Assembly (NCBI GenBank): GCA_016286365.1
Contig: JAEESN010000003.1
Location: 1-64,000, forward strand
Source of the DNA: Treponema sp.
GTDB taxonomy: Bacteria > Spirochaetota > Spirochaetia > Treponematales > Treponemataceae
Direction of reading: 5' to 3'
DNA: 64,000 nt
Every line of letters starts with the position of its first letter. Positions within the stretch are counted from its first letter, which is position 1. Both the position numbers and the translations under genes were made by a program. Under the pieces are notes generated by a model that had not been told where the DNA came from, made no database searches, and saw nothing but the letters and a program-made list of their open reading frames with translations. Below are positions 1,936 through 14,970 of this stretch, one piece after another.

Positions 1936-3648
1936 CTATCCTTGTAACATTTTTCTGAAAATACCATTTTTTCTTTTTAATTCTAAGAAACTACCCTGTT
2001 CAATTATTTTACCTTTATCTAATACACAGATATTATCGCAGTTCTCTATGGTTGAAAGTCTATGAGCTATGGATATTATTGTTTTATGTTCTTTTTTTAA
2101 TTTTTTTATTATTTCTACTACCACTTTTTCTGATTCTACATCAAGATTGCTTGTTGCTTCATCAAATATTATGATTGATGGATTTTTTAATAACGCTCGA
2201 CAGATTACTATTATCTGTTTTTCTCCTCCCGATAAAGAAAATCCCCTTTCTCCCACGACAGTATCAAACCCTGATTCCAAACTCATTATTTTTTCATAAA
2301 TACCAACTGTTTTACAAATCTCAATAATCTTATCTTTTTTTATTGATTCATCAAACATTGTAATATTCTGAATTATTGTTCCTGAAAACAAGACTACCTC
2401 TTGTGGAATATACGCAATTTTTAAACGAAGATCTTCTGTATCTATCTTAGATAAATCAATCCCATTCCATGATATTTGCCCTCTCAGAGGTTTATAAAGT
2501 TTTAAAAGAAGTTTAGCTATCGTTGTTTTTCCAGAACCAGTCTTCCCTGCAAAGCTAATCCATTCACCAGGTTTTATTATTAGATTAAAATCATTAAATA
2601 ATTCATTTTCTTTTGAATAACTAAAACTCATATTCTTAAATGTTATTTCTGGAATATCATCTGCCAAACGAAGTCCTGTAAATTCATCCTCTGTATCTTC
2701 ATCCAAAACTTCAAAGAGACGTTTTATAGCTGCGAAAGCTTCCTGAACGCCAGCCTGTAAATCAAGTAAAGCTCCAACAGAATTTGTAAAAAATCCGCTT
2801 AGAGAAATAAAACCGGCAACCTGCCCTAAAGTCATTTTTTCATTCATTACAAATAAAGAACTAAAAACTAATATAAATACGGATGATAATTTTTCTATTA
2901 TGGAGCAATAAGAATTCTGCATAATCCATTTTTCTCCAATATTCCATCCGGTTTGAATATTTTCCTTTTGTTTTCTGTCATATTGATTTTTAAATGTTCT
3001 GAATGAAGGATAAGTTTTTATTGACTCTATTCCTGAAAAACTTTCATTGATAAAGGCTTGTAAATCTGCATACTTTTCCATAGAAACCGGATATTCTTTT
3101 GCAAAAAAACGGCCAAAAAACAATACCACCACAGACAGAATAATTACTGATATTAAAAGAATAAGAAAAAGAATTTTATTAATACATATCAAAGCGGTTC
3201 CAACGACAAGAAACATAATTAGATTTGCAATTATTGATATAAACCCATCTGACAAAGCATTCCGAACCATACGTGTATCATTTAAACGGGAAAGCAGTTC
3301 TCCGGTTTTATGTTTTTCAAAAAAAAGATATTTAATCCTCAATACTTTTTCATAAAACCTCTTCATCAAATCTATGTCCATCTTATAGGAAATCTCTTGA
3401 ATTAAAAGATTTTTTATTCCTCTTAATGCCATTTGGAAAATAGCAACTAGAAGCATTATTATAGCTATTGTAAGAAGAGTTATCTTTGCATTTGAATACA
3501 AGACATTATCAATCAAATAATTCAAGAGTAAAGAATCGGTAACTCCAACCAGCGAAATCATCATCGTAGAGATTAATGTAATTATCATCTCTTTTTTATA
3601 TGAACTAAGAAGCAATATTATCTTTTTCAGAGTAGGCTTATTTATCAT
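1936..3648 (-). CDS. ABC exporter (TMD-NBD) of the peptide operon, no C39 peptidase
   Basis: Half-size ABC exporter of about 570 residues. The N-terminal half has some six hydrophobic segments; the C-terminal half is a nucleotide-binding domain with Walker A GKTGSGKTT (about residue 370), signature LSGGEKQ (about 471), Walker B IIIFDEATSNLD and the H-loop SIAHRLS. It resembles peptide exporters of bacteriocin systems but begins directly with the membrane domain, so the N-terminal C39 leader peptidase of peptidase-containing transporters is missing. The ATG at 3648 overlaps the end of the HlyD gene by 11 nt; an upstream in-frame TTG at 3666 is possible. Last gene of the operon. Likely exports the modified peptide together with the adaptor protein. 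Confidence 0.88.
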   Translation of the reverse strand: MINKPTLKKIILLLSSYKKEMIITLISTMMISLVGVTDSLLLNYLIDNVLYSNAKITLLTIAIIMLLVAIFQMALRGIKNLLIQEISYKMDIDLMKRFYEKVLRIKYLFFEKHKTGELLSRLNDTRMVRNALSDGFISIIANLIMFLVVGTALICINKILFLILLISVIILSVVVLFFGRFFAKEYPVSMEKYADLQAFINESFSGIESIKTYPSFRTFKNQYDRKQKENIQTGWNIGEKWIMQNSYCSIIEKLSSVFILVFSSLFVMNEKMTLGQVAGFISLSGFFTNSVGALLDLQAGVQEAFAAIKRLFEVLDEDTEDEFTGLRLADDIPEITFKNMSFSYSKENELFNDFNLIIKPGEWISFAGKTGSGKTTIAKLLLKLYKPLRGQISWNGIDLSKIDTEDLRLKIAYIPQEVVLFSGTIIQNITMFDESIKKDKIIEICKTVGIYEKIMSLESGFDTVVGERGFSLSGGEKQIIVICRALLKNPSIIIFDEATSNLDVESEKVVVEIIKKLKKEHKTIISIAHRLSTIENCDNICVLDKGKIIEQGSFLELKRKNGIFRKMLQG

Positions 3649-4741
3649 AACTAACCAATTTTCCAATCATTTTTTGAAATATTGTATTTGAATCTGTTAT
3701 TATTTTTGCGTTTACCTTTGTTCCGACTTTTAATTTTATAGTTTCTTTTTTATATGTCAGACTTCCCTTATCAAGCTTTACTTCTACAGAAAAATATGGA
3801 TTGTCAGATTCAATAGCATCAGCCGGTATTAATATTATTTTGCCTTCGAGCTTTCCATATTTTGTATAAGGAAGATCTGATATCTGAAATATTACATTCT
3901 GCCCAATCTTAATTTTTGAAATACTTGAATTTGATATATTTATTACAGCCAGCAAATCCAATGAATCGGGAACTATAGTTGCTATCTGAATTCCAGCATT
4001 AAGACTTTCACCAGCAGAAATTTTTTGTTTTTCATTTATAAAACCAGTTTCTCTAGCCCTTACAGATGCATCTGCAACTATTTTTTGTAATCGCATAATT
4101 TCAAGTTCTGTATTTTTTAATTTTTGTGAAAAATCTGAATAGTTTTCTAAAACCTGAGTTTTCTGTTCTTCCAGCCAATATTTAAAATTGAGCTCAACCT
4201 GAAAATAATCATTTTCTGCATTTTCCAATTCCTGCTTAGAAATAACAGACGGGTACAGAGCTTTCTGGCGTTCATAATAATTCTTCTTTATTTTTACTTC
4301 GCTCTGATATTTCTTATATTGATTTACAAAAGAAGAATACTCTGCATTTTCTTTTACGTATATTTCGTCGTATGGACATTTTTTTTCTGTCGTTTCTAAC
4401 AACAATTCTTGAAGTCTTTTTAAAGAATCTACATGCTGTTCATATAAAGCTTTTAGATTTAGACAGTTTTGCAATCCTTCTTTTTCATAACTACAATCCT
4501 GCTCAAACAGCAAATCACCTTTATTTACAAACTGTGTATTTTTATAATATACGTTTGTTACTTTTCCCGAATATAATGAAATTACATCTGATGATTCCTG
4601 GACAGGACGAATAGTTCCCTCGCATAAAACAACTTCGTCCAGATGACAGAAAAAGAGGGAAAGAAGGAAAAAAAGAAAAGTTATTATTAGTAATCTTATA
4701 TAAGACTTTTTTAATCTGCCATTTATAAATGAATACTGCAT
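3638..4741 (-). CDS. HlyD-type membrane fusion / secretion adaptor protein
   Basis: A 367-residue periplasmic adaptor. A single membrane anchor near residues 15-35 is followed by a split biotinyl-lipoyl-like region (EGTIRPVQ..DVISLYSGKVTNVYYKNTQFVNKGDLLFEQD), a long coiled-coil hairpin (about residues 75-215) and the returning lipoyl and beta-barrel parts (TGFINEKQKISAGESLNAGIQIATIVP). This is the architecture of HlyD-family adaptors that link an ABC exporter to an outer-membrane channel or span the periplasm. It starts 2 nt after the upstream lipoprotein gene and overlaps the ABC gene, so the three are translationally linked. No TolC-like channel gene is present nearby. The coiled coil is shorter than in HlyD itself. 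Confidence 0.88.
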   Translation of the reverse strand: MQYSFINGRLKKSYIRLLIITFLFFLLSLFFCHLDEVVLCEGTIRPVQESSDVISLYSGKVTNVYYKNTQFVNKGDLLFEQDCSYEKEGLQNCLNLKALYEQHVDSLKRLQELLLETTEKKCPYDEIYVKENAEYSSFVNQYKKYQSEVKIKKNYYERQKALYPSVISKQELENAENDYFQVELNFKYWLEEQKTQVLENYSDFSQKLKNTELEIMRLQKIVADASVRARETGFINEKQKISAGESLNAGIQIATIVPDSLDLLAVINISNSSISKIKIGQNVIFQISDLPYTKYGKLEGKIILIPADAIESDNPYFSVEVKLDKGSLTYKKETIKLKVGTKVNAKIITDSNTIFQKMIGKLVSYDK

Positions 4742-4743
4742 TT

Positions 4744-6246
4744 TTACCAGCCAAAATATACATATTCCTTATAATCAAATTCAAACGGGAATTTAACCTG
4801 TATTTCTTTTTGCCTGTAATAATCAGCCTTTTCTATGTTACCAGTTTTTTCTTCACATAATGCAGCTTTCTCATAAGCTAATTTTAAAACAGGACTTACA
4901 TATAATAATTCATTCTGAAATAATTCTTCCCATTCTTTTAATGCTTTTTTATAATCTGATTTTTTTTCTGAATACATTGCCTGGTCTGTTTTAAAATATG
5001 CAATCCAATACTGTGGCCAAATATCATTGTTTGGAGCTATCTCTTTGGCGTGTTGCATTGAATTAATTATATAACTTATTACTTCAATATTAGGTTTTGT
5101 TAAATACTCATCAATTAAACCATAACAATACATATACTTTGAATATTCTTCTAATAAAGTTATATCCCAATCTTTTTTCCAAAAATTTGAATAACCATTA
5201 TCTGTAACTAATTCGAAAAGATTATTTATACATTTTTCAAGGTCATTATAATTGTCAAAATAATTATAAATAAATAAATCATCAAAATAATATTTTAAAT
5301 AATATATTGAGAGTAAGAATTGAAATGATTCTGAACCCGGCACAACACTTGTTAGTCGTGAAAAATCTCCTATCTTTTTTTCACCATCAATTATTTTTTC
5401 TAAGAGACAATTAGCATGATTTCTAATTGGAATATAACTATATGAAACTCCATATTTCTCCTGCTTAGTAATGCATAAATTATTATATGCTGCCAAAAAT
5501 TCTTCTCCGTATAGTTCACTTTTAATATTTTCTGGTACTATAAAACAATTCTCATCTGCTGCTAATAATAAATCACATTCTCTGGATGGAAAAAAACAAT
5601 CAATTTTATAATTTGTAAAATTATCATCATAATAATCAGATAAATAAACACCCAATGCTTTCCAATTATAATCATAAAAAAGCTGGTTTATCTTATAACC
5701 ATGATTCGCTCCAAAAAAAACAATAGCTTTGTCATTTTTTTGTGAACTAGATAAACTATTAATGATATTTTGTTGACTATAATAATCCCGATTATTTATC
5801 AAATTAGATTGACCTTTAATATCATATGTATAATCTTTTTCTTCAAATCCTTCTTCTGGGAAACATATTCGTATTGGATCGTTCAAATATTTCTTATTAA
5901 TTTCATTTATTTTCTCGAAAAAGAGTTTCTCTTCATATTTCCAGCCTGCATTAATCCACATTGGCATAATTAAAAATTTATAGTTTTTAGTTGCATCCAT
6001 AGGAGGTGTTTGAATTGCTTCTAAAAAAAGATATCTTAAGCCAGCATTATAAAATTCTTCCAGATGTTCTGTCATAAAAATAATTGGATAAATGTCTGCG
6101 TGGTTTTCACCAATAAAAATGATTTTTTTATTATATAAATCTTCAACAATCTGTTCGCTTGCAGGTTTCGCATTACGTAAATTATATGTTTTTTTACAAG
6201 AAATAAATAAAACAAAGATAACAAAAAAAAGAATAATCTTTTTCAT
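4744..6246 (-). CDS. Lipoprotein with two GxxH motifs (Tiki/TraB/ChaN-like), candidate peptidase
   Basis: A 500-residue predicted lipoprotein. The signal MKKIILFFVIFVLFISC ends in a lipobox with Cys17. The start at 6246 shares one base with the stop of the preceding radical SAM gene (TAATG), which supports it over an upstream ATG at 6345. Residues about 40-185 resemble the ChaN/EreA/TraB/Tiki fold: GENH (46-49) after a hydrophobic strand, an acidic FLEA strand, and GANH (179-182) after IVFFGANHG. Paired GxxH motifs are the metal-binding signature of Tiki/TraB-type metallopeptidases, while ChaN binds haem. The C-terminal half is helical and TPR-like. It could be the operon's leader peptidase, since the exporter lacks one, or it could handle metal, haem or immunity. 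Function is inferred. Confidence 0.6.
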   Translation of the reverse strand: MKKIILFFVIFVLFISCKKTYNLRNAKPASEQIVEDLYNKKIIFIGENHADIYPIIFMTEHLEEFYNAGLRYLFLEAIQTPPMDATKNYKFLIMPMWINAGWKYEEKLFFEKINEINKKYLNDPIRICFPEEGFEEKDYTYDIKGQSNLINNRDYYSQQNIINSLSSSQKNDKAIVFFGANHGYKINQLFYDYNWKALGVYLSDYYDDNFTNYKIDCFFPSRECDLLLAADENCFIVPENIKSELYGEEFLAAYNNLCITKQEKYGVSYSYIPIRNHANCLLEKIIDGEKKIGDFSRLTSVVPGSESFQFLLSIYYLKYYFDDLFIYNYFDNYNDLEKCINNLFELVTDNGYSNFWKKDWDITLLEEYSKYMYCYGLIDEYLTKPNIEVISYIINSMQHAKEIAPNNDIWPQYWIAYFKTDQAMYSEKKSDYKKALKEWEELFQNELLYVSPVLKLAYEKAALCEEKTGNIEKADYYRQKEIQVKFPFEFDYKEYVYFGW

Positions 6247-7355
6247 TAATTTATATACCTCGTAATTATAAAATCTTTTCCAAGAATACTTATCTTGTTT
6301 AAAATGTAATCTGCAATTTGAATTAGCTTTTGACTTATTATACATTCTTGAGTTGATATTTCAAATAACTTCCCACATGAATGGTAATTTCTCGAAGGAC
6401 AATAATTTGAACACTTATTTCTAAAAACACACTCAGAACATTTTGAAAACATGTTTTGAGTGGAAACTTGTTTCTGAAACAATTCAATTCTTTTCAAATC
6501 TAACCCTTCTATTAGATTCCCAATTATTACATCATTACAATTAAGACCCGAAAAATCTCCACACGAGAGTATATTTCCATCTGGCAAAATTGTACATGTC
6601 GTTTTCCCTGCAGAGCATAATTGAGTTTCTTCATTATTGTTCAATAAATTTAATTTTATTTGTTTATCAAAAAAATCAAAACCGATTTCTTTTGTCTCTA
6701 TTACTCTTTTAGAATAAATATCTCCTAGAATATATAATTCTTTTTCTAATAATGAAATTTCCTGTTCCTTCCAATTTTGATTAAATGCGATATTCATCGA
6801 TATTTTTACATTAAAATTCTTTGTAAGGAACAAATAATTTTCAGACAAATACTTCACATTATTAGGGGTAATAACTGAATTAATTATAATCTTCTTATGA
6901 TTACTAAGGTTTTTATATATATAATTAATTCTACTAAAAACTTTGTCAAAGCTTCCTTTCCCATTCTTAAATATTCTATTTAAATTATGAGACTCTTTTA
7001 TACCATCAAGACTCAAAAAAAAATCAAAATTATGCCTTTTAAAAAACTCAAAACTTTGTTTGGTTATTAAAACAGTATTCGTTGATATTTCCCATATAAA
7101 ATCTCTCTTTTCATTTATTAATACTAGTTCTATTCTTTCCACTAACTTTTTTATAATTGGAAAATTCAATAAACATTCACCCCCAGATATATTTATTGAA
7201 ATAATCTCATTTGGATGTCTTTCAATATCCCCTTTAATAAAACTTAGATAATCTGAAATCATTCCGTCTGTAATTTTTTTGTATTCTTTGCTTTTTTCAA
7301 AACAATATTTACATTCTAAATTACAATTCATATTTGTAATGATTTGATAATGCAT
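6246..7355 (-). CDS. Radical SAM/SPASM peptide maturase 2
   Basis: A 369-residue radical SAM enzyme. The cluster motif is CNLECKYC at residues 11-18 (Cx3Cx2C), followed by the SGGECLLNF motif (SAM binding) and the LDGIKESHNLNR segment. The C-terminal SPASM region has CSAGKTTC, ILSCGDFSG and CSECVFRNKCSNYC (Cx2Cx5Cx3C, near residue 305), giving ligands for auxiliary clusters. It is close in layout to the preceding radical SAM protein (same Cys positions 11/15/18), so the two are probably paralogues. An SD of GAGGGAG precedes the start. In this operon it should install thioether, C-C or epimer modifications on the Cys-rich peptide. No RiPP-recognition domain is obvious in it. Confidence 0.88.
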   Translation of the reverse strand: MHYQIITNMNCNLECKYCFEKSKEYKKITDGMISDYLSFIKGDIERHPNEIISINISGGECLLNFPIIKKLVERIELVLINEKRDFIWEISTNTVLITKQSFEFFKRHNFDFFLSLDGIKESHNLNRIFKNGKGSFDKVFSRINYIYKNLSNHKKIIINSVITPNNVKYLSENYLFLTKNFNVKISMNIAFNQNWKEQEISLLEKELYILGDIYSKRVIETKEIGFDFFDKQIKLNLLNNNEETQLCSAGKTTCTILPDGNILSCGDFSGLNCNDVIIGNLIEGLDLKRIELFQKQVSTQNMFSKCSECVFRNKCSNYCPSRNYHSCGKLFEISTQECIISQKLIQIADYILNKISILGKDFIITRYIN

Positions 7356-7370
7356 TTATTATGTCTCCCT

Positions 7371-8471
7371 CTATTTCTTAATATATGTACCAAATTGTTT
7401 TAAAAATGTTTCATTATTCTCTTTTAATAAAAACTCAATTATTTGATCTGATATTCCTATGATTGTTTTTTGCATTTCACACGTTATTACTGGTGGAGAA
7501 ATTAAATCATTCGTTACTCTGTTATTAATTGCATAACAGTTATGGTGACACCTAAAGTTCAAACTACATTGTGAACAATCTTCATTTTCTTTATCTATAA
7601 GAAATAATAATTCTTTTATTTTATGACTATCAATTCCTGTATGTATATTTCCAATCAGATAATTACTTTCGTTCTTACATTTAAAAAATGTTCCACAAAA
7701 AAGTATATCGCCATTTGTTTTTATTCCAATTTGATCTGTTATACCACCGCAATTATATTTTCCAAAACCTTTAAAAAAACTTTCGATACAATCAGAAAAT
7801 AAAGAAAAAACAAACATATCATTTTCTATATACTTCTGAATATATAATTGTTTGATTTTATCAAGTTCATTTTTAAAAAATAATATACTATTTTCATCCC
7901 ATTCATAATCCGCACAATAACAAGCAACAAGTCTTTTACACCCATTATTAACTAAAAAAAATACATTTTCATACAAAGCTGCGACTGTTGATGGAGTTAT
8001 AAGCATACTATACGAAGTCTTTATTAATGGATACTTATTATGAATTAAATTAATTTTTTCCATGACTGCATCAAAAGTTCCCTCGTTCATAAAATCAACT
8101 CGATTCATATCATGACTTTCTTTTTTACCATCTATACTAATTTGTACTGAAAACTTCTTCGTATTCAAAAAATCTAGTATTTCATCATTCGCCAATATGA
8201 GATTTGTAGATAATGAGAAATTATTAATCCCATCCTTTTCAAAATAACTAACTAACTCTTTCATTAAAGGGAACTCAAGAAGAGCTTCTCCTCCATTGAA
8301 ATTCACAGTAATTTCTTTATTCAAAACAAAACTTTGTGATACGTACGTATGAAAAAAGTTAATCAATTCTGAAACATCTTTTACATAAAATGATCTATTT
8401 TTTTTTACTCCTTCAAAACAATAACGACAATTAATATTACAATTTTCTGTAAGTAACAATTCAAAAATCAT
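7371..8471 (-). CDS. Radical SAM/SPASM peptide maturase 1
   Basis: A 366-residue radical SAM enzyme beginning MIFELLLTENCNINCRYC (Cx3Cx2C, residues 11-18). It has the SAM-binding FNGGEALLEFP segment and a SPASM tail with ILFCGTFFKC and CSQCSLNFRCHHNC (Cx2Cx5Cx3C, about residue 297). SPASM enzymes of this size modify ribosomal peptides or sulfatases; no sulfatase is nearby and a Cys-rich 70-residue peptide lies directly upstream, so a peptide substrate is inferred. An SD of AAAGAGG precedes the start, immediately next to one arm of the inverted repeat enclosing the precursor gene. The gap to the next maturase is 15 nt. Having two maturases for one peptide suggests two modification steps or a heterodimer. 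Confidence 0.88.
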   Translation of the reverse strand: MIFELLLTENCNINCRYCFEGVKKNRSFYVKDVSELINFFHTYVSQSFVLNKEITVNFNGGEALLEFPLMKELVSYFEKDGINNFSLSTNLILANDEILDFLNTKKFSVQISIDGKKESHDMNRVDFMNEGTFDAVMEKINLIHNKYPLIKTSYSMLITPSTVAALYENVFFLVNNGCKRLVACYCADYEWDENSILFFKNELDKIKQLYIQKYIENDMFVFSLFSDCIESFFKGFGKYNCGGITDQIGIKTNGDILFCGTFFKCKNESNYLIGNIHTGIDSHKIKELLFLIDKENEDCSQCSLNFRCHHNCYAINNRVTNDLISPPVITCEMQKTIIGISDQIIEFLLKENNETFLKQFGTYIKK

Positions 8472-8483
8472 AGCAAACCTCTT

Positions 8484-8502
8484 TAAAAGAACTACATATA
8501 TA
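8484..8502 (+). repeat. Inverted repeat arm, downstream of the precursor gene
   Basis: TAAAAGAACTACATATATA on the plus strand is the perfect 19-nt reverse complement of 8757-8775. The two arms enclose exactly the precursor peptide gene with its SD. This arm lies between the peptide stop codon and the SD of the first radical SAM gene. Confidence 0.85.
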
Positions 8503-8518
8503 TTTTTTTAATTATCTG

Positions 8519-8731
8519 TTATTGACAGAATGTTGAGCTACTGCCACAGCCTTTACAGTTAGTTCCTGTGTTTCCATTAGAACCACAATTACATGGTCCT
8601 GATCCCGTATTTGTTAACCCGTTACATGATGGTCCATGAGGAGTTCCGCCTCCTCCCTTTTCATAAATCAAAATTCTTAAATCTGAAATAAAATTCGATT
8701 CAGAATATTCCTTAACTGGTTTTAAACTCAT
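8519..8731 (-). CDS. RiPP precursor peptide, Cys/Gly-rich, 70 aa
   Basis: A 70-residue peptide with a charged N-terminal leader-like part (residues 1-25, ending LRILIYEK), a run of four glycines (26-29) and a 41-residue tail made almost only of Gly, Ser, Thr, Asn and six Cys (36, 47, 49, 59, 62, 69). This two-part layout next to two SPASM radical SAM enzymes and an exporter is that of a sactipeptide- or ranthipeptide-like precursor; the six Cys within 34 residues recall the six-Cys ranthipeptides, but I do not recognise the leader. AAGGAGGT, 6 nt before the ATG, is the strongest SD in the operon and fits a highly expressed precursor. Cleavage after the Gly run is plausible but not shown. Confidence 0.82.
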   Translation of the reverse strand: MSLKPVKEYSESNFISDLRILIYEKGGGGTPHGPSCNGLTNTGSGPCNCGSNGNTGTNCKGCGSSSTFCQ

Positions 8732-8756
8732 ATCAATACCTCCTTAAAATACTTTT

Positions 8757-8775
8757 TATATATGTAGTTCTTTTA
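8757..8775 (+). repeat. Inverted repeat arm, upstream of the precursor gene
   Basis: TATATATGTAGTTCTTTTA is the perfect reverse complement of 8484-8502. It lies in the 60-nt gap between the GNAT-like gene and the precursor gene, upstream of the precursor SD. The arms are 254 nt apart. Confidence 0.85.
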
Positions 8776-8791
8776 TCTTTTTTTACCGATA

Positions 8792-9304
8792 TCAAAGTTT
8801 TTTGAAAGCAAGATAATCTTCTTTAAAAATCTCAAACAGCACATTGTTATAATATTTCCCGTCTGTAAGTTTCACTGAGTTTCTTGAAATACCTACTTCA
8901 TTTCCATTTAATTTTTTAACAAGCCGGCGATACATATTCAAAACAGGATTTTGTTCGATACATGAAAATTCAATCTTACGGAGATTTTTATAAATAAATA
9001 CTTCATCAAAATAAGCTTCAATATCTTTTGAAAAAATAATATTTGGTTTTCCGGTAAAATTAATAACCTCAAACTTTTCTAAAAGTTCATAACCTCTGTT
9101 AATATATCCTGTAAAAAATCCAAGTAGATTACCTTTACTGTCCTTGCTTACAAATTGTAAAAATTCAGAATCATTATTTGATATGTAGGGATAAAAATCT
9201 TTTTGTGGGTAATAAATATACAGATACAAATCATTGTTTTCTGTATAAATCTTTTTATATGCTTCATAAAGCTTATCTTGATTAAAATAAGCAGGTTCTA
9301 ACAT
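8792..9304 (-). CDS. GNAT-like protein, first gene of the peptide operon
   Basis: A 170-residue protein with a mixed alpha/beta pattern and a C-terminal part (NPVLNMYRRLVKKLNGNEVGIS, then a strand ending in VLFEIFKEDYLAFKK) that looks like the last helix and strands of GNAT acetyltransferases; the acetyl-CoA loop is not clearly canonical. First gene after the divergent promoter, with SD GGAGATAG before the ATG. Possible roles are N-acetylation of the peptide or self-protection; both are inference. It is 60 nt upstream of the precursor gene. It could also be a degenerate GNAT fold with a binding role. Confidence 0.55.
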   Translation of the reverse strand: MLEPAYFNQDKLYEAYKKIYTENNDLYLYIYYPQKDFYPYISNNDSEFLQFVSKDSKGNLLGFFTGYINRGYELLEKFEVINFTGKPNIIFSKDIEAYFDEVFIYKNLRKIEFSCIEQNPVLNMYRRLVKKLNGNEVGISRNSVKLTDGKYYNNVLFEIFKEDYLAFKKL

Positions 9305-9353
9305 TTATCTATCTCCGAATACTTTTCTAATAAGATATTTTTTAATTCAAAAA

Positions 9354-9370
9354 ATATACTAACAGTATAT
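9354..9370. promoter_or_regulatory. Palindrome at the start site of the peptide operon
   Basis: ATATACT-AAC-AGTATAT is a perfect 7-bp inverted repeat with a 3-nt centre. It lies just downstream of the -10 of the minus-strand operon promoter, where a repressor site would block initiation. A likely ligand is the divergently encoded XRE protein (inference). Confidence 0.45.
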
Positions 9371-9376
9371 AATTAT

Positions 9377-9405
9377 ATTAAAATATGCTTTTAGTAAATT
9401 GTCAA
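9377..9405 (-). promoter_or_regulatory. Promoter of the peptide operon
   Basis: On the minus strand a perfect TTGACA (9400-9405), a 17-nt spacer and TTTAAT (9377-9382). It would drive the seven-gene operon down to 1936, since no terminator is visible between genes and spacings are short. The -35 overlaps a plus-strand TTGTCA (9399-9404), so the two divergent promoters share this element. Confidence 0.65.
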
Positions 9406-9427
9406 ATTTATTTTTAACAAAAATAAT
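9399..9427 (+). promoter_or_regulatory. Probable promoter of the XRE regulator
   Basis: TTGTCA (9399-9404), a 17-nt spacer and AATAAT (9422-9427). The -10 is only moderate. It overlaps the start of the perfect palindrome at 9423-9445, which would allow autoregulation. Confidence 0.4.
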
Positions 9428-9445
9428 ATCCTTAAAGGATATTAT
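9423..9445. promoter_or_regulatory. Perfect palindrome containing the regulator's Shine-Dalgarno
   Basis: Two perfect 11-bp arms (left ATAATATCCTT, right AAGGATATTAT) around a single A. The right arm holds AAGGA, the SD for the ATG at 9448. It can act as a DNA operator overlapping the -10, or as an RNA hairpin hiding the SD; both would give feedback on the regulator. Confidence 0.55.
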
Positions 9446-9447
9446 CA

Positions 9448-9753
9448 ATGACAATACAGGAATGTCTGGCAAAAAATATAAAATATTACAGAAACAAAAA
9501 TAATCTTACACAAAGCCAGCTTGCAGAAGCGTGTAGAACCTCAACAAATTATATTGCGACAATTGAAACAGGAAAAAAATATCCTTCGCCTACAACTCTC
9601 GAAAAAATTGCAAAGGTTTTTAATATTGAAGCTCTGGATTTGTTTCAAATTCATAAAGAGTTACACGCTACTAATGACAGGCCATCCATAGAAAAAATCC
9701 GTAACACCTTGCAAACAGAAATTTCAAAGCTAATTGACTCTATTGTTAAATAA
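9448..9753 (+). CDS. XRE-family helix-turn-helix regulator
   Basis: A 101-residue protein. Residues 1-65 form a Cro/C1-type HTH (NLTQSQLAEACRTSTNYIATIETGKKYPSPTTLEKIAKVF), followed by a short Lys-rich helical tail. It is divergent from the radical SAM peptide operon, separated by 143 bp with overlapping promoters and two palindromes, so it is the obvious candidate controller of the operon and itself. No sensor domain is visible, so the signal is unknown; the tail may mediate dimerisation. Confidence 0.85.
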   Translation: MTIQECLAKNIKYYRNKNNLTQSQLAEACRTSTNYIATIETGKKYPSPTTLEKIAKVFNIEALDLFQIHKELHATNDRPSIEKIRNTLQTEISKLIDSIVK

Positions 9754-13065: not shown

Positions 13066-14970
13066 CTATTCTCCACGGACAATCCGCAATATCGCACGGC
13101 CGAAATTTTCTACCTTGGTGTTTCCCATTCCGTATACATTTAAAAGCTCCGTTTTATCCTGCGGTTTTTTTGCCGCTATATCGAGCATGGTCTTGTCGCC
13201 AAAAATTATATATGGTGGAACATTCATATCATCAGCCTTACGCTTTCTCCACGCCTTTAATTCCTGAATGATTTTTTCTGCCTCTTCGTCGGTGGCTGCC
13301 GGTTTTTCTGCAACAATCTTTTCTGACTTTTTATGAACGATGTAATCAGGCATTTTCTTCGATGGTTTTGGAAAGGCTGTAAATCCGCTTGTATCTTCTT
13401 TCTTTTTATGGAAAATGATTGGAAGAAGAACTTTTTCGCGTGTGACAATCAGGTCTCGTCCTTTTGCCGTCATCGTAAGGATGTGATAATCCCCCGCTTT
13501 AAAAAGATAGCCTTCCTGGATCAATAAATCTGTAAGAGAAAGCCAGTCCATTTTAGAAAGCTCGTTTCCGATGCCCCAGGTGGAAATCATGTTGTGGCCG
13601 TTTTCGAGTATGCGCTTGTTTCTGGAGCCCAAAAGGATATCGATGATGTAATTTGTGCCAAAGCGCTCGCCTGTACGGATTATGCACGAGATTAATTTCT
13701 GAACCGGGATTGTTACGTCGTTCAGAGGGATTTCTCCTCCGGCACAGATATCGCAGCAGCAGTTTTTTTCTTCGGGTGATTTATTTTCTGAATCGTATCG
13801 CTCGCCAAAATATCCCAAAAGTGATTCGCGGCGGCATTTTCTTGAAACTGCAAAATTGAGCATGCCTTGTAAAAGCGCTTCTGATTTAGCGGGATCGGCT
13901 GCTTCGTCAAAAAAATATCTGATTTTATTTACATCACTCGGGCTGTAGATTAAGAGTGCCGAAGAAGGAAGTCCGTCCCTGCCCGCTCGCCCTATTTCCT
14001 GATAGTAAACTTCCAGCGATTTTGGAAGTCCGTAGTTTATGACAAAGCGTACATTGGGTTTATTTATTCCCATTCCGAATGCGACGGTTGCAACCATAAT
14101 CTGAACTTCATCCTTTATAAAAAGCTCCTGATGTTTTGCCCTTACTTCGTCTGTAAGTCCCGCGTGATAGCTCATTGCAGAATAGCCAAGGTTATCGAGG
14201 ACGGATGTGAGTTCATCAACCTGCTTTCTTGAAAAACAATAGATGATTCCGCTTTCGCCAAGATGCTTTTTTATGCAGGCGATTATCTGGTCCAGCGCAT
14301 TCTGTTTCTGCTGAACTTCCAGGAAAATATTGCTTCGGTTAAAGCTCGAGATGAAGACCTTTGGCTTTTTTAAGTTAAGATTTTTTTCGATGTCCTTACG
14401 GACCTGCTCTGTGGCTGTTGCAGTAAGAGCGAGCATGACTGCGTCCGGGAAGAGTCGTCTGATGGAACGGATTTCGAGGTAGTCTGGGCGAAAGTCGTGT
14501 CCCCATTCAGAAACACAATGTGCTTCGTCCACGGTGATGCAGTCAACTTTTATACCGTCTTCGCTCAAAAAGTCACGGATTTTTCCGGTTGCAAGGCCTT
14601 CGGGCGAAACGTAAATGATTTTGGCATTTTTGGAACGGATGTCGTCCATCGCTTCTTTATAATTTTTCCAGTCGAGTGTGCTGTTCAAAAAAACTGCATG
14701 AATGCCCGAAGTTTCGAGCGAAGAAACCTGGTCCTGCATGAGGGAAATAAGAGGTGTAACGACGACTGTGATTCCATCCATAATCAGGGCGGGAATCTGG
14801 TAGCAGATTGATTTTCCGCCGCCGGTGGGCATGATGGCAAGAACATCGTGTCCTTTCAAAACCTCTGTGATTATCTCTTTCTGGAAAGGCCTGAAGGAAT
14901 CATAACCGAAAACAGTTTTTAATACGAACTCCGGTTTTGTCCCGATAAAAGTTTTTGCATTAATCTTCAC
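13066..14970 (-). CDS. recQ: ATP-dependent DNA helicase RecQ
   Basis: About 634 residues. It has Walker A IMPTGGGKSICYQIP, the DEAH box DEAHCVSEWGHDFRPDYL with the RecQ aromatic loop, motif VI QEIGRAGRDG, the zinc-binding RQC part (CRRES and CCCDICAGG) and a C-terminal HRDC-type helical domain (GDKTMLDIAAKKP..LLNVYGMGNTK). It unwinds recombination intermediates. A GTG at 14970 is chosen because TATAAT (14977-14982) ends 6 nt before it and there is no SD; an upstream in-frame GTG at 14994 would place the promoter inside the gene. Expressed alone, convergent with metH. Confidence 0.92.
   Translation of the reverse strand: MKINAKTFIGTKPEFVLKTVFGYDSFRPFQKEIITEVLKGHDVLAIMPTGGGKSICYQIPALIMDGITVVVTPLISLMQDQVSSLETSGIHAVFLNSTLDWKNYKEAMDDIRSKNAKIIYVSPEGLATGKIRDFLSEDGIKVDCITVDEAHCVSEWGHDFRPDYLEIRSIRRLFPDAVMLALTATATEQVRKDIEKNLNLKKPKVFISSFNRSNIFLEVQQKQNALDQIIACIKKHLGESGIIYCFSRKQVDELTSVLDNLGYSAMSYHAGLTDEVRAKHQELFIKDEVQIMVATVAFGMGINKPNVRFVINYGLPKSLEVYYQEIGRAGRDGLPSSALLIYSPSDVNKIRYFFDEAADPAKSEALLQGMLNFAVSRKCRRESLLGYFGERYDSENKSPEEKNCCCDICAGGEIPLNDVTIPVQKLISCIIRTGERFGTNYIIDILLGSRNKRILENGHNMISTWGIGNELSKMDWLSLTDLLIQEGYLFKAGDYHILTMTAKGRDLIVTREKVLLPIIFHKKKEDTSGFTAFPKPSKKMPDYIVHKKSEKIVAEKPAATDEEAEKIIQELKAWRKRKADDMNVPPYIIFGDKTMLDIAAKKPQDKTELLNVYGMGNTKVENFGRAILRIVRGE

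Follow-up and report, generated by a model that had tools for sequence, protein, structure and literature searches.

A predicted long-range mRNA stem around the precursor cistron of a radical SAM peptide operon in Treponema

Described routes to precursor excess

Ribosomal-peptide operons need precursor in great excess over enzyme, both being encoded on a single transcript. Published systems that bear on this are compared here on the basis of excerpts from the papers cited. In the microcin C operon, a hairpin terminator between mccA and mccB gives a large excess of precursor mRNA over the biosynthetic enzymes (PMC6495379). That hairpin is local and linked to ribosome binding, whereas at the corresponding position of the locus described below neither a strong local hairpin nor a terminator-like site was found. 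In the epipeptide operon of Bacillus subtilis, the authors link an intergenic structure between epeX and epeE to RNA processing and to translation of the maturase (PMC12871923). There, as here, the RNA lies between a precursor gene and a radical SAM maturase gene, and in epeX-epeE it is structured; however, that structure is a local terminator-like stem flanked by sites for the sRNA FsrA, and no enclosing clamp appears in the excerpt. In the SRPS of the cip-cel cellulosome operon, structures near processed 3' ends have free energies that correlate with transcript ratios and set stoichiometry (PMC4423207). The likeness lies in an intercistronic RNA structure within a polycistronic mRNA. The SRPS structures in that excerpt are local 3'-end stem-loops, whereas here one long-range stem would close both sides of a cistron, and processing is only proposed. 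SRPS operons are marked by a stem-loop between cistrons, at the 3' end of the abundant one; no such strong stem-loop was found at the present locus, where the structure is long-range.

Two further systems involve pairing over a distance. The aapA and hok toxin mRNAs are made very stable by a long-distance interaction between their 5' and 3' ends (PMC6733600). Pairing between ends that flank a small open reading frame (ORF) is common to those mRNAs and to this locus, but in the excerpt it masks the toxin's own Shine-Dalgarno (SD) sequence, while here the precursor SD lies outside the pairing and the stem is set within an operon. In rRNA stalks cut by RNase III (PMC3386247), distant inverted repeats pair around a segment of a longer transcript, as proposed here; the segment enclosed here is a protein-coding cistron, one of the stems has just 12 bp, and cleavage is only proposed. 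A full-text search of open-licence papers found no description of a long-range clamp enclosing a cistron in an operon. Known regulation of this kind uses local hairpins, and a stem enclosing a whole cistron, as predicted from the sequences below, would be a new form.

An inverted repeat at the precursor gene

The window is a stretch of 64,000 nucleotides from Treponema sp. (assembly GCA_016286365.1, contig JAEESN010000003.1, positions 1 to 64,000). The features that concern us, in the order of transcription, are as follows.

8792..9304, minus strand: GNAT-like protein, so called by appearance (no Pfam match); first co-directional gene, conserved in the cluster
8757..8775, minus strand: 5' arm, mRNA 5'-UAAAAGAACUACAUAUAUA-3'; 16 nt past the GNAT-like stop and 25 nt before the precursor AUG
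8739..8745, minus strand: precursor SD, AAGGAGG (from sequence), within the loop
8519..8731, minus strand: precursor peptide gene, 70 aa, with a leader-like N terminus and a Gly/Cys-rich C terminus; assigned by position and by a similar leader-like N terminus in four loci
8484..8502, minus strand: 3' arm, mRNA 5'-UAUAUAUGUAGUUCUUUUA-3'; 16 nt past the precursor stop and 12 nt before the rSAM1 AUG
8478..8482, minus strand: rSAM1 SD, AGAGG (from sequence), 1 nt outside the stem
7371..8471, minus strand: rSAM1, a radical SAM/SPASM-type peptide maturase, PapB-like below the PapB cut-off (Pfam/NCBIfam)
6246..7355, minus strand: rSAM2, a second radical SAM/SPASM-type maturase (Pfam/NCBIfam)
4744..6246, minus strand: lipoprotein-like protein with a GENH motif, conserved in the cluster; the ORF is listed to 6345, and the likely start is the ATG at 6246
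3638..4741, minus strand: HlyD-family export adaptor (profile match)
1936..3666, minus strand: ABC exporter with membrane and ATPase domains (profile match)

Judged by its gene layout this is a RiPP operon, and it probably makes a modified peptide. Neither the precursor nor the GENH-motif protein had a Pfam or NCBIfam match. The NCBIfam model nearest to both maturases was PapB (NF047865), against which they scored 151 and 164.5 bits with a cut-off of 340, which leaves them outside the PapB-family ranthipeptide maturases. Roughly twelve further genomes of the genus encode relatives of the GENH-motif protein without having such a cluster. An XRE-type regulator gene (9448-9753) is divergent from the operon.

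An earlier note on this DNA, made from the letters alone, described a perfect 19-bp inverted repeat enclosing exactly the precursor gene and its SD, and we confirmed both the coordinates and the complementarity (19/19). The sequence TAAAAGAACTACATATATA at 8484-8502 has its exact reverse complement at 8757-8775, 254 nt away, and nothing but the 70-aa ORF (8519-8731, minus strand) with its SD lies between the two arms. The boundaries of the stem are exact, the next pair on either side being A-A. At up to three mismatches, no third copy of the arm was found in the window (0.07 expected), and the next best match in the 2.68-Mb genome was a single copy with two mismatches on another contig. A search of Rfam with positions 8000-9500 gave no match above the gathering score.

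Recurrence of the complementarity in related loci

Loci with the same cluster were sought with the maturase, the GENH-motif protein, HlyD and the GNAT-like protein as queries across the genus (about 200 species), the order, a second family and the phylum. Three loci beyond the window had a surviving precursor region. L040 (genome G106, same genus) has the same genes except for the GNAT-like one and the second adjacent radical SAM gene. L039 (G034, same genus) retains the GNAT-like gene and the precursor but only the first part of rSAM1; HlyD, ABC and a partial GENH gene are on another contig. L185 (G536, another family of the phylum) has the precursor, rSAM1, rSAM2, the GENH-motif protein and the GNAT-like gene. 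The G034 copy of the cluster is probably broken: its rSAM1 is cut after about 25 codons, at the contig end, by a putative IS3-type transposase ORF (L039:14564-14784). L039 also has an XRE-type ORF (13318-13638) at the same divergent position as in the window. A candidate fifth locus (L103:1-3000, in G318) was set aside as decayed; its precursor region is lost near a transposase-like ORF, which lies upstream, and its rSAM1 fragments are split by unrelated sequence. A scan of genome contigs for relatives gave one distant match only, and the viral contigs searched contained no orthologue of the cluster.

In each of the four examinable loci (the window, L039 and L040 from the same genus, and L185 from a different family), a perfect inverted repeat flanks the precursor, and the letters of the arms differ. 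The arms beyond the window are as follows.

L039: arm AAAATAATCTGTACTTAT, 18 bp, loop 252 nt
L040: arm AAGAAAAGTATCCACTT, 17 bp, loop 254 nt
L185: arm CCATGGGTAGCT, 12 bp, loop 278 nt

The 3' arm ends 12-26 nt before the start of the first maturase gene across the four loci. When each arm was paired with its own partner, the duplex energies were -21.4, -19.7, -22.7 and -21.7 kcal/mol (window, L039, L040 and L185), and the twelve cross-locus pairings gave -0.4 to -4.9 kcal/mol. Thus, complementarity is kept while the sequence changes at equivalent positions in all four loci, the pattern looked for in a selected long-range RNA stem. The earlier note had proposed a search for the same arms in related genomes; complementarity was found at the same place in the three further loci, and the arm sequence proved not to be shared. 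The shortest stem, that of L185, is also the richest in G-C, so it appears that energy rather than length or sequence is kept, which with four loci is a trend and not a law. That related operons build the same clamp from different letters suggests that the pairing itself is useful. The three same-genus arms are weakly alike when aligned. Shared ancestry followed by matching substitutions in the two arms could account for this, and their positional homology is a candidate one.

The earlier note had also called a chance match improbable, and this was borne out. Of 4,000 dinucleotide shuffles, none reached the observed run at any locus; the longest runs were 12 in the window (intergenic regions of 60 nt on the 5' side and 47 nt on the 3' side), 13 in L039, 15 in L040 and 11 in L185. 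AT-rich DNA does yield inverted repeats by accident: in about 0.95 Mb examined, five more were found that are perfect over 15-17 nt and have some 150-400 nt between their arms. Yet a repeat recurs independently at the equivalent position in three more loci, which refutes chance, an explanation that we consider practically dismissed.

Among 99 radical SAM sites (repeats of one locus counted), a stem adjoining the maturase start was seen in these four loci only. In forty same-genus HlyD/ABC clusters no repeat convincingly enclosed a precursor. The one in L155, AT-rich, with arms of 14 nt set 412 nt apart on either side of a small ORF resembling a precursor, was judged to be chance. A repeat upstream of a Cys-rich peptide and a radical SAM gene (L106:279-468, 18-bp terminal inverted repeats) was rejected, since it looks like a MITE with a cacggcttc duplication and not a clamp. 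Radical SAM homologues in another family (L186-L188) have a different substrate type and no such repeat. In two homologous clusters, stretches of 14-16 nt, 165-170 nt apart, are complementary (L135:9031-9228 and L136:3851-4047): one stretch (ATTGTGTATAAT) precedes the SD of a retropepsin-like gene, and the other falls early in the coding sequence of that gene. This may reflect a promoter -10 element and chance.

Related maturases (30-32% identity) are encoded by two clostridial plasmid clusters, in P. sordellii (L189:4772-4885) and C. difficile (L190:4739-4832), which carry two or three radical SAM genes, an S8 peptidase and an ABC transporter. There, a small Cys-containing ORF is followed by a strong local hairpin, the intergenic RNA folding to -40.9 and -17.2 kcal/mol, and 5'-3' complementarity is at chance level (9 and 8 nt). 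Since the gene order differs, with the precursor following the maturases, this comparison is an analogy and not one of strict homologues.

The first of two explanations given in the earlier note was an invertible or mobile cassette. On this reading the arms would be recombination sites or transposon ends by which the precursor could be flipped off or exchanged. The perfection of the repeats, with almost no wobble, would fit this, as would the precursor cores, which diverge fast between loci, and the loop length, which is 252-254 nt in the window, L039 and L040. Sites of this type should be constant in sequence and length, should turn up elsewhere in the genome or should lie close to a gene for their enzyme, and since none of these signs was seen, the cassette is disfavored. 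Arm sequence and length vary between loci, and the arms have no second genomic copy. The precursor points along the operon in 4/4 loci (a weak argument with one genome per species). No target-site duplication was found, nor, by inspection, any direct repeat outside the window arms. The remark in the earlier note that no recombinase is nearby holds as well: the genome has four tyrosine recombinases, none on this contig, and the flanking genes tested with Pfam include none. We regard a DNA-level cassette as very unlikely.

Folding of the transcript and proposed role of the stem

The second explanation in the earlier note, a long-range RNA stem in the operon mRNA, is well supported by the recurrence in 4/4 loci, by the near-equal energies and by the folding predictions. 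In partition function calculations the pair probabilities of the arms were mostly 0.9-1.0, with values of 0.54-0.89 only at the stem ends. Whole-segment folding gave z-scores of -5.1, -3.3, -3.7 and -1.7 (window, L039, L040 and L185), the last being modest, as 5 of 100 shuffles fold as well. The RNA between precursor and rSAM1, taken alone, folds to only -2.4 to -6.3 kcal/mol, and a strong local hairpin is absent there in all four loci. Both arms are probably transcribed with the operon, and gene order, spacing and promoter position are consistent with this: the 5' arm of three loci stands 16 nt after the upstream co-directional gene, overlaps its end or stands 22 nt after it, and in L040 it lies downstream of the best promoter match (TTGACA-17-AATAAT). 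A point against an RNA stem is the scarcity of G-U pairs, of which such stems commonly tolerate more: the perfect runs have none in 66 pairs, and helix extension adds one, in L039. This count is biased by selection of the longest perfect run.

We have moderate confidence that the arms form a long-range mRNA stem that sets the ratio of precursor to maturase. In the proposed model, the two arms pair within the operon mRNA, and the resulting stem would close a loop of about 250-280 nt in which the complete precursor cistron lies together with its SD. Once the polycistronic transcript had been cut upstream and downstream of the clamp, both ends of the cistron would sit in one duplex, resistant to exonucleases, with the precursor SD free in the loop, and the precursor segment would be stable and well translated. 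In the three same-genus loci, the base of the stem would lie against the SD and standby region of rSAM1 and restrain initiation there. Protection and insulation of the precursor cistron, together with restrained translation of the maturase, is thus the likely role, by which precursor would exceed enzyme.

RNase III may also cut the stem, although the model does not need such cutting. A stem mainly for cutting, like the 16S/23S rRNA stalks, would release a separate precursor mRNA and should have a helix of about two turns; the nearly defect-free helices of 17-20 bp in the three same-genus loci speak for it. RNase III genes are present in three of the four genomes, namely, that of the window (G000), G034 and G536 (none was found in G106, a genome that is 80% complete). 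However, the stem of L185 has just 12 bp, short for RNase III, and it appears to be energy, not helix length, that is kept. This argues against cutting as the sole purpose, and because of that short stem, protection and insulation fit at least as well. We think a processing stalk rather unlikely.

The restraint on rSAM1 is the weakest part of the model, because the stem is predicted to lower accessibility around the rSAM1 start in L039 and L040 but hardly at all in the window or L185. The same predictions bear on an attenuator or switch, in which translation of the precursor would form or melt the stem and so control rSAM1 transcription or translation, as a long-loop terminator or a standby-site switch. 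The drop in access upstream of rSAM1 in L039 and L040 would agree with this, as would the stem base, which abuts the rSAM1 SD in the three same-genus loci (in the window, 1 nt before AGAGG and 12 nt before the AUG), and the 3' arm, which is U-rich or followed by U (U7 at the stem end in L039). Against it, no terminator-like site was found at the 3' arm in the window or L040, a 250-280 nt loop with an AU-rich base is unlike intrinsic terminators, and the effect is small in the window and L185. An attenuator or switch is, in our estimation, improbable.

One point is not required by the long-range stem model. Measured from the inner end of the 5' arm, the rSAM1 AUG lies exactly 285 nt away in the window, L039 and L040 (316 nt in L185), even though the ORFs of the first three measure 213, 198 and 177 nt, respectively. 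The agreement may be accidental, may come in part from common ancestry with no net insertion or deletion, or may mark a true constraint. Gapless homology was rejected in part as the source, since unshifted identity was at background for the window against L039 and against L040; between L039 and L040 it was raised (0.39 versus 0.30).

More broadly, the four loci may exemplify a cis-acting mRNA architecture kept by its energy (about -21 kcal/mol) while its sequence turns over, one that encloses the precursor cistron, stands where related clusters have a local hairpin and keeps the substrate in excess, a proposition that to us seems evenly balanced. If true, the long-range clamp would be another solution to the problem of precursor excess, beside local hairpins, and a simple two-arm design for setting stoichiometry. 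Because only complementarity is conserved, it would be invisible to annotation based on sequence or local structure. It would also supply a testable rule, namely, to scan for energy-matched complementarity around small operon genes.
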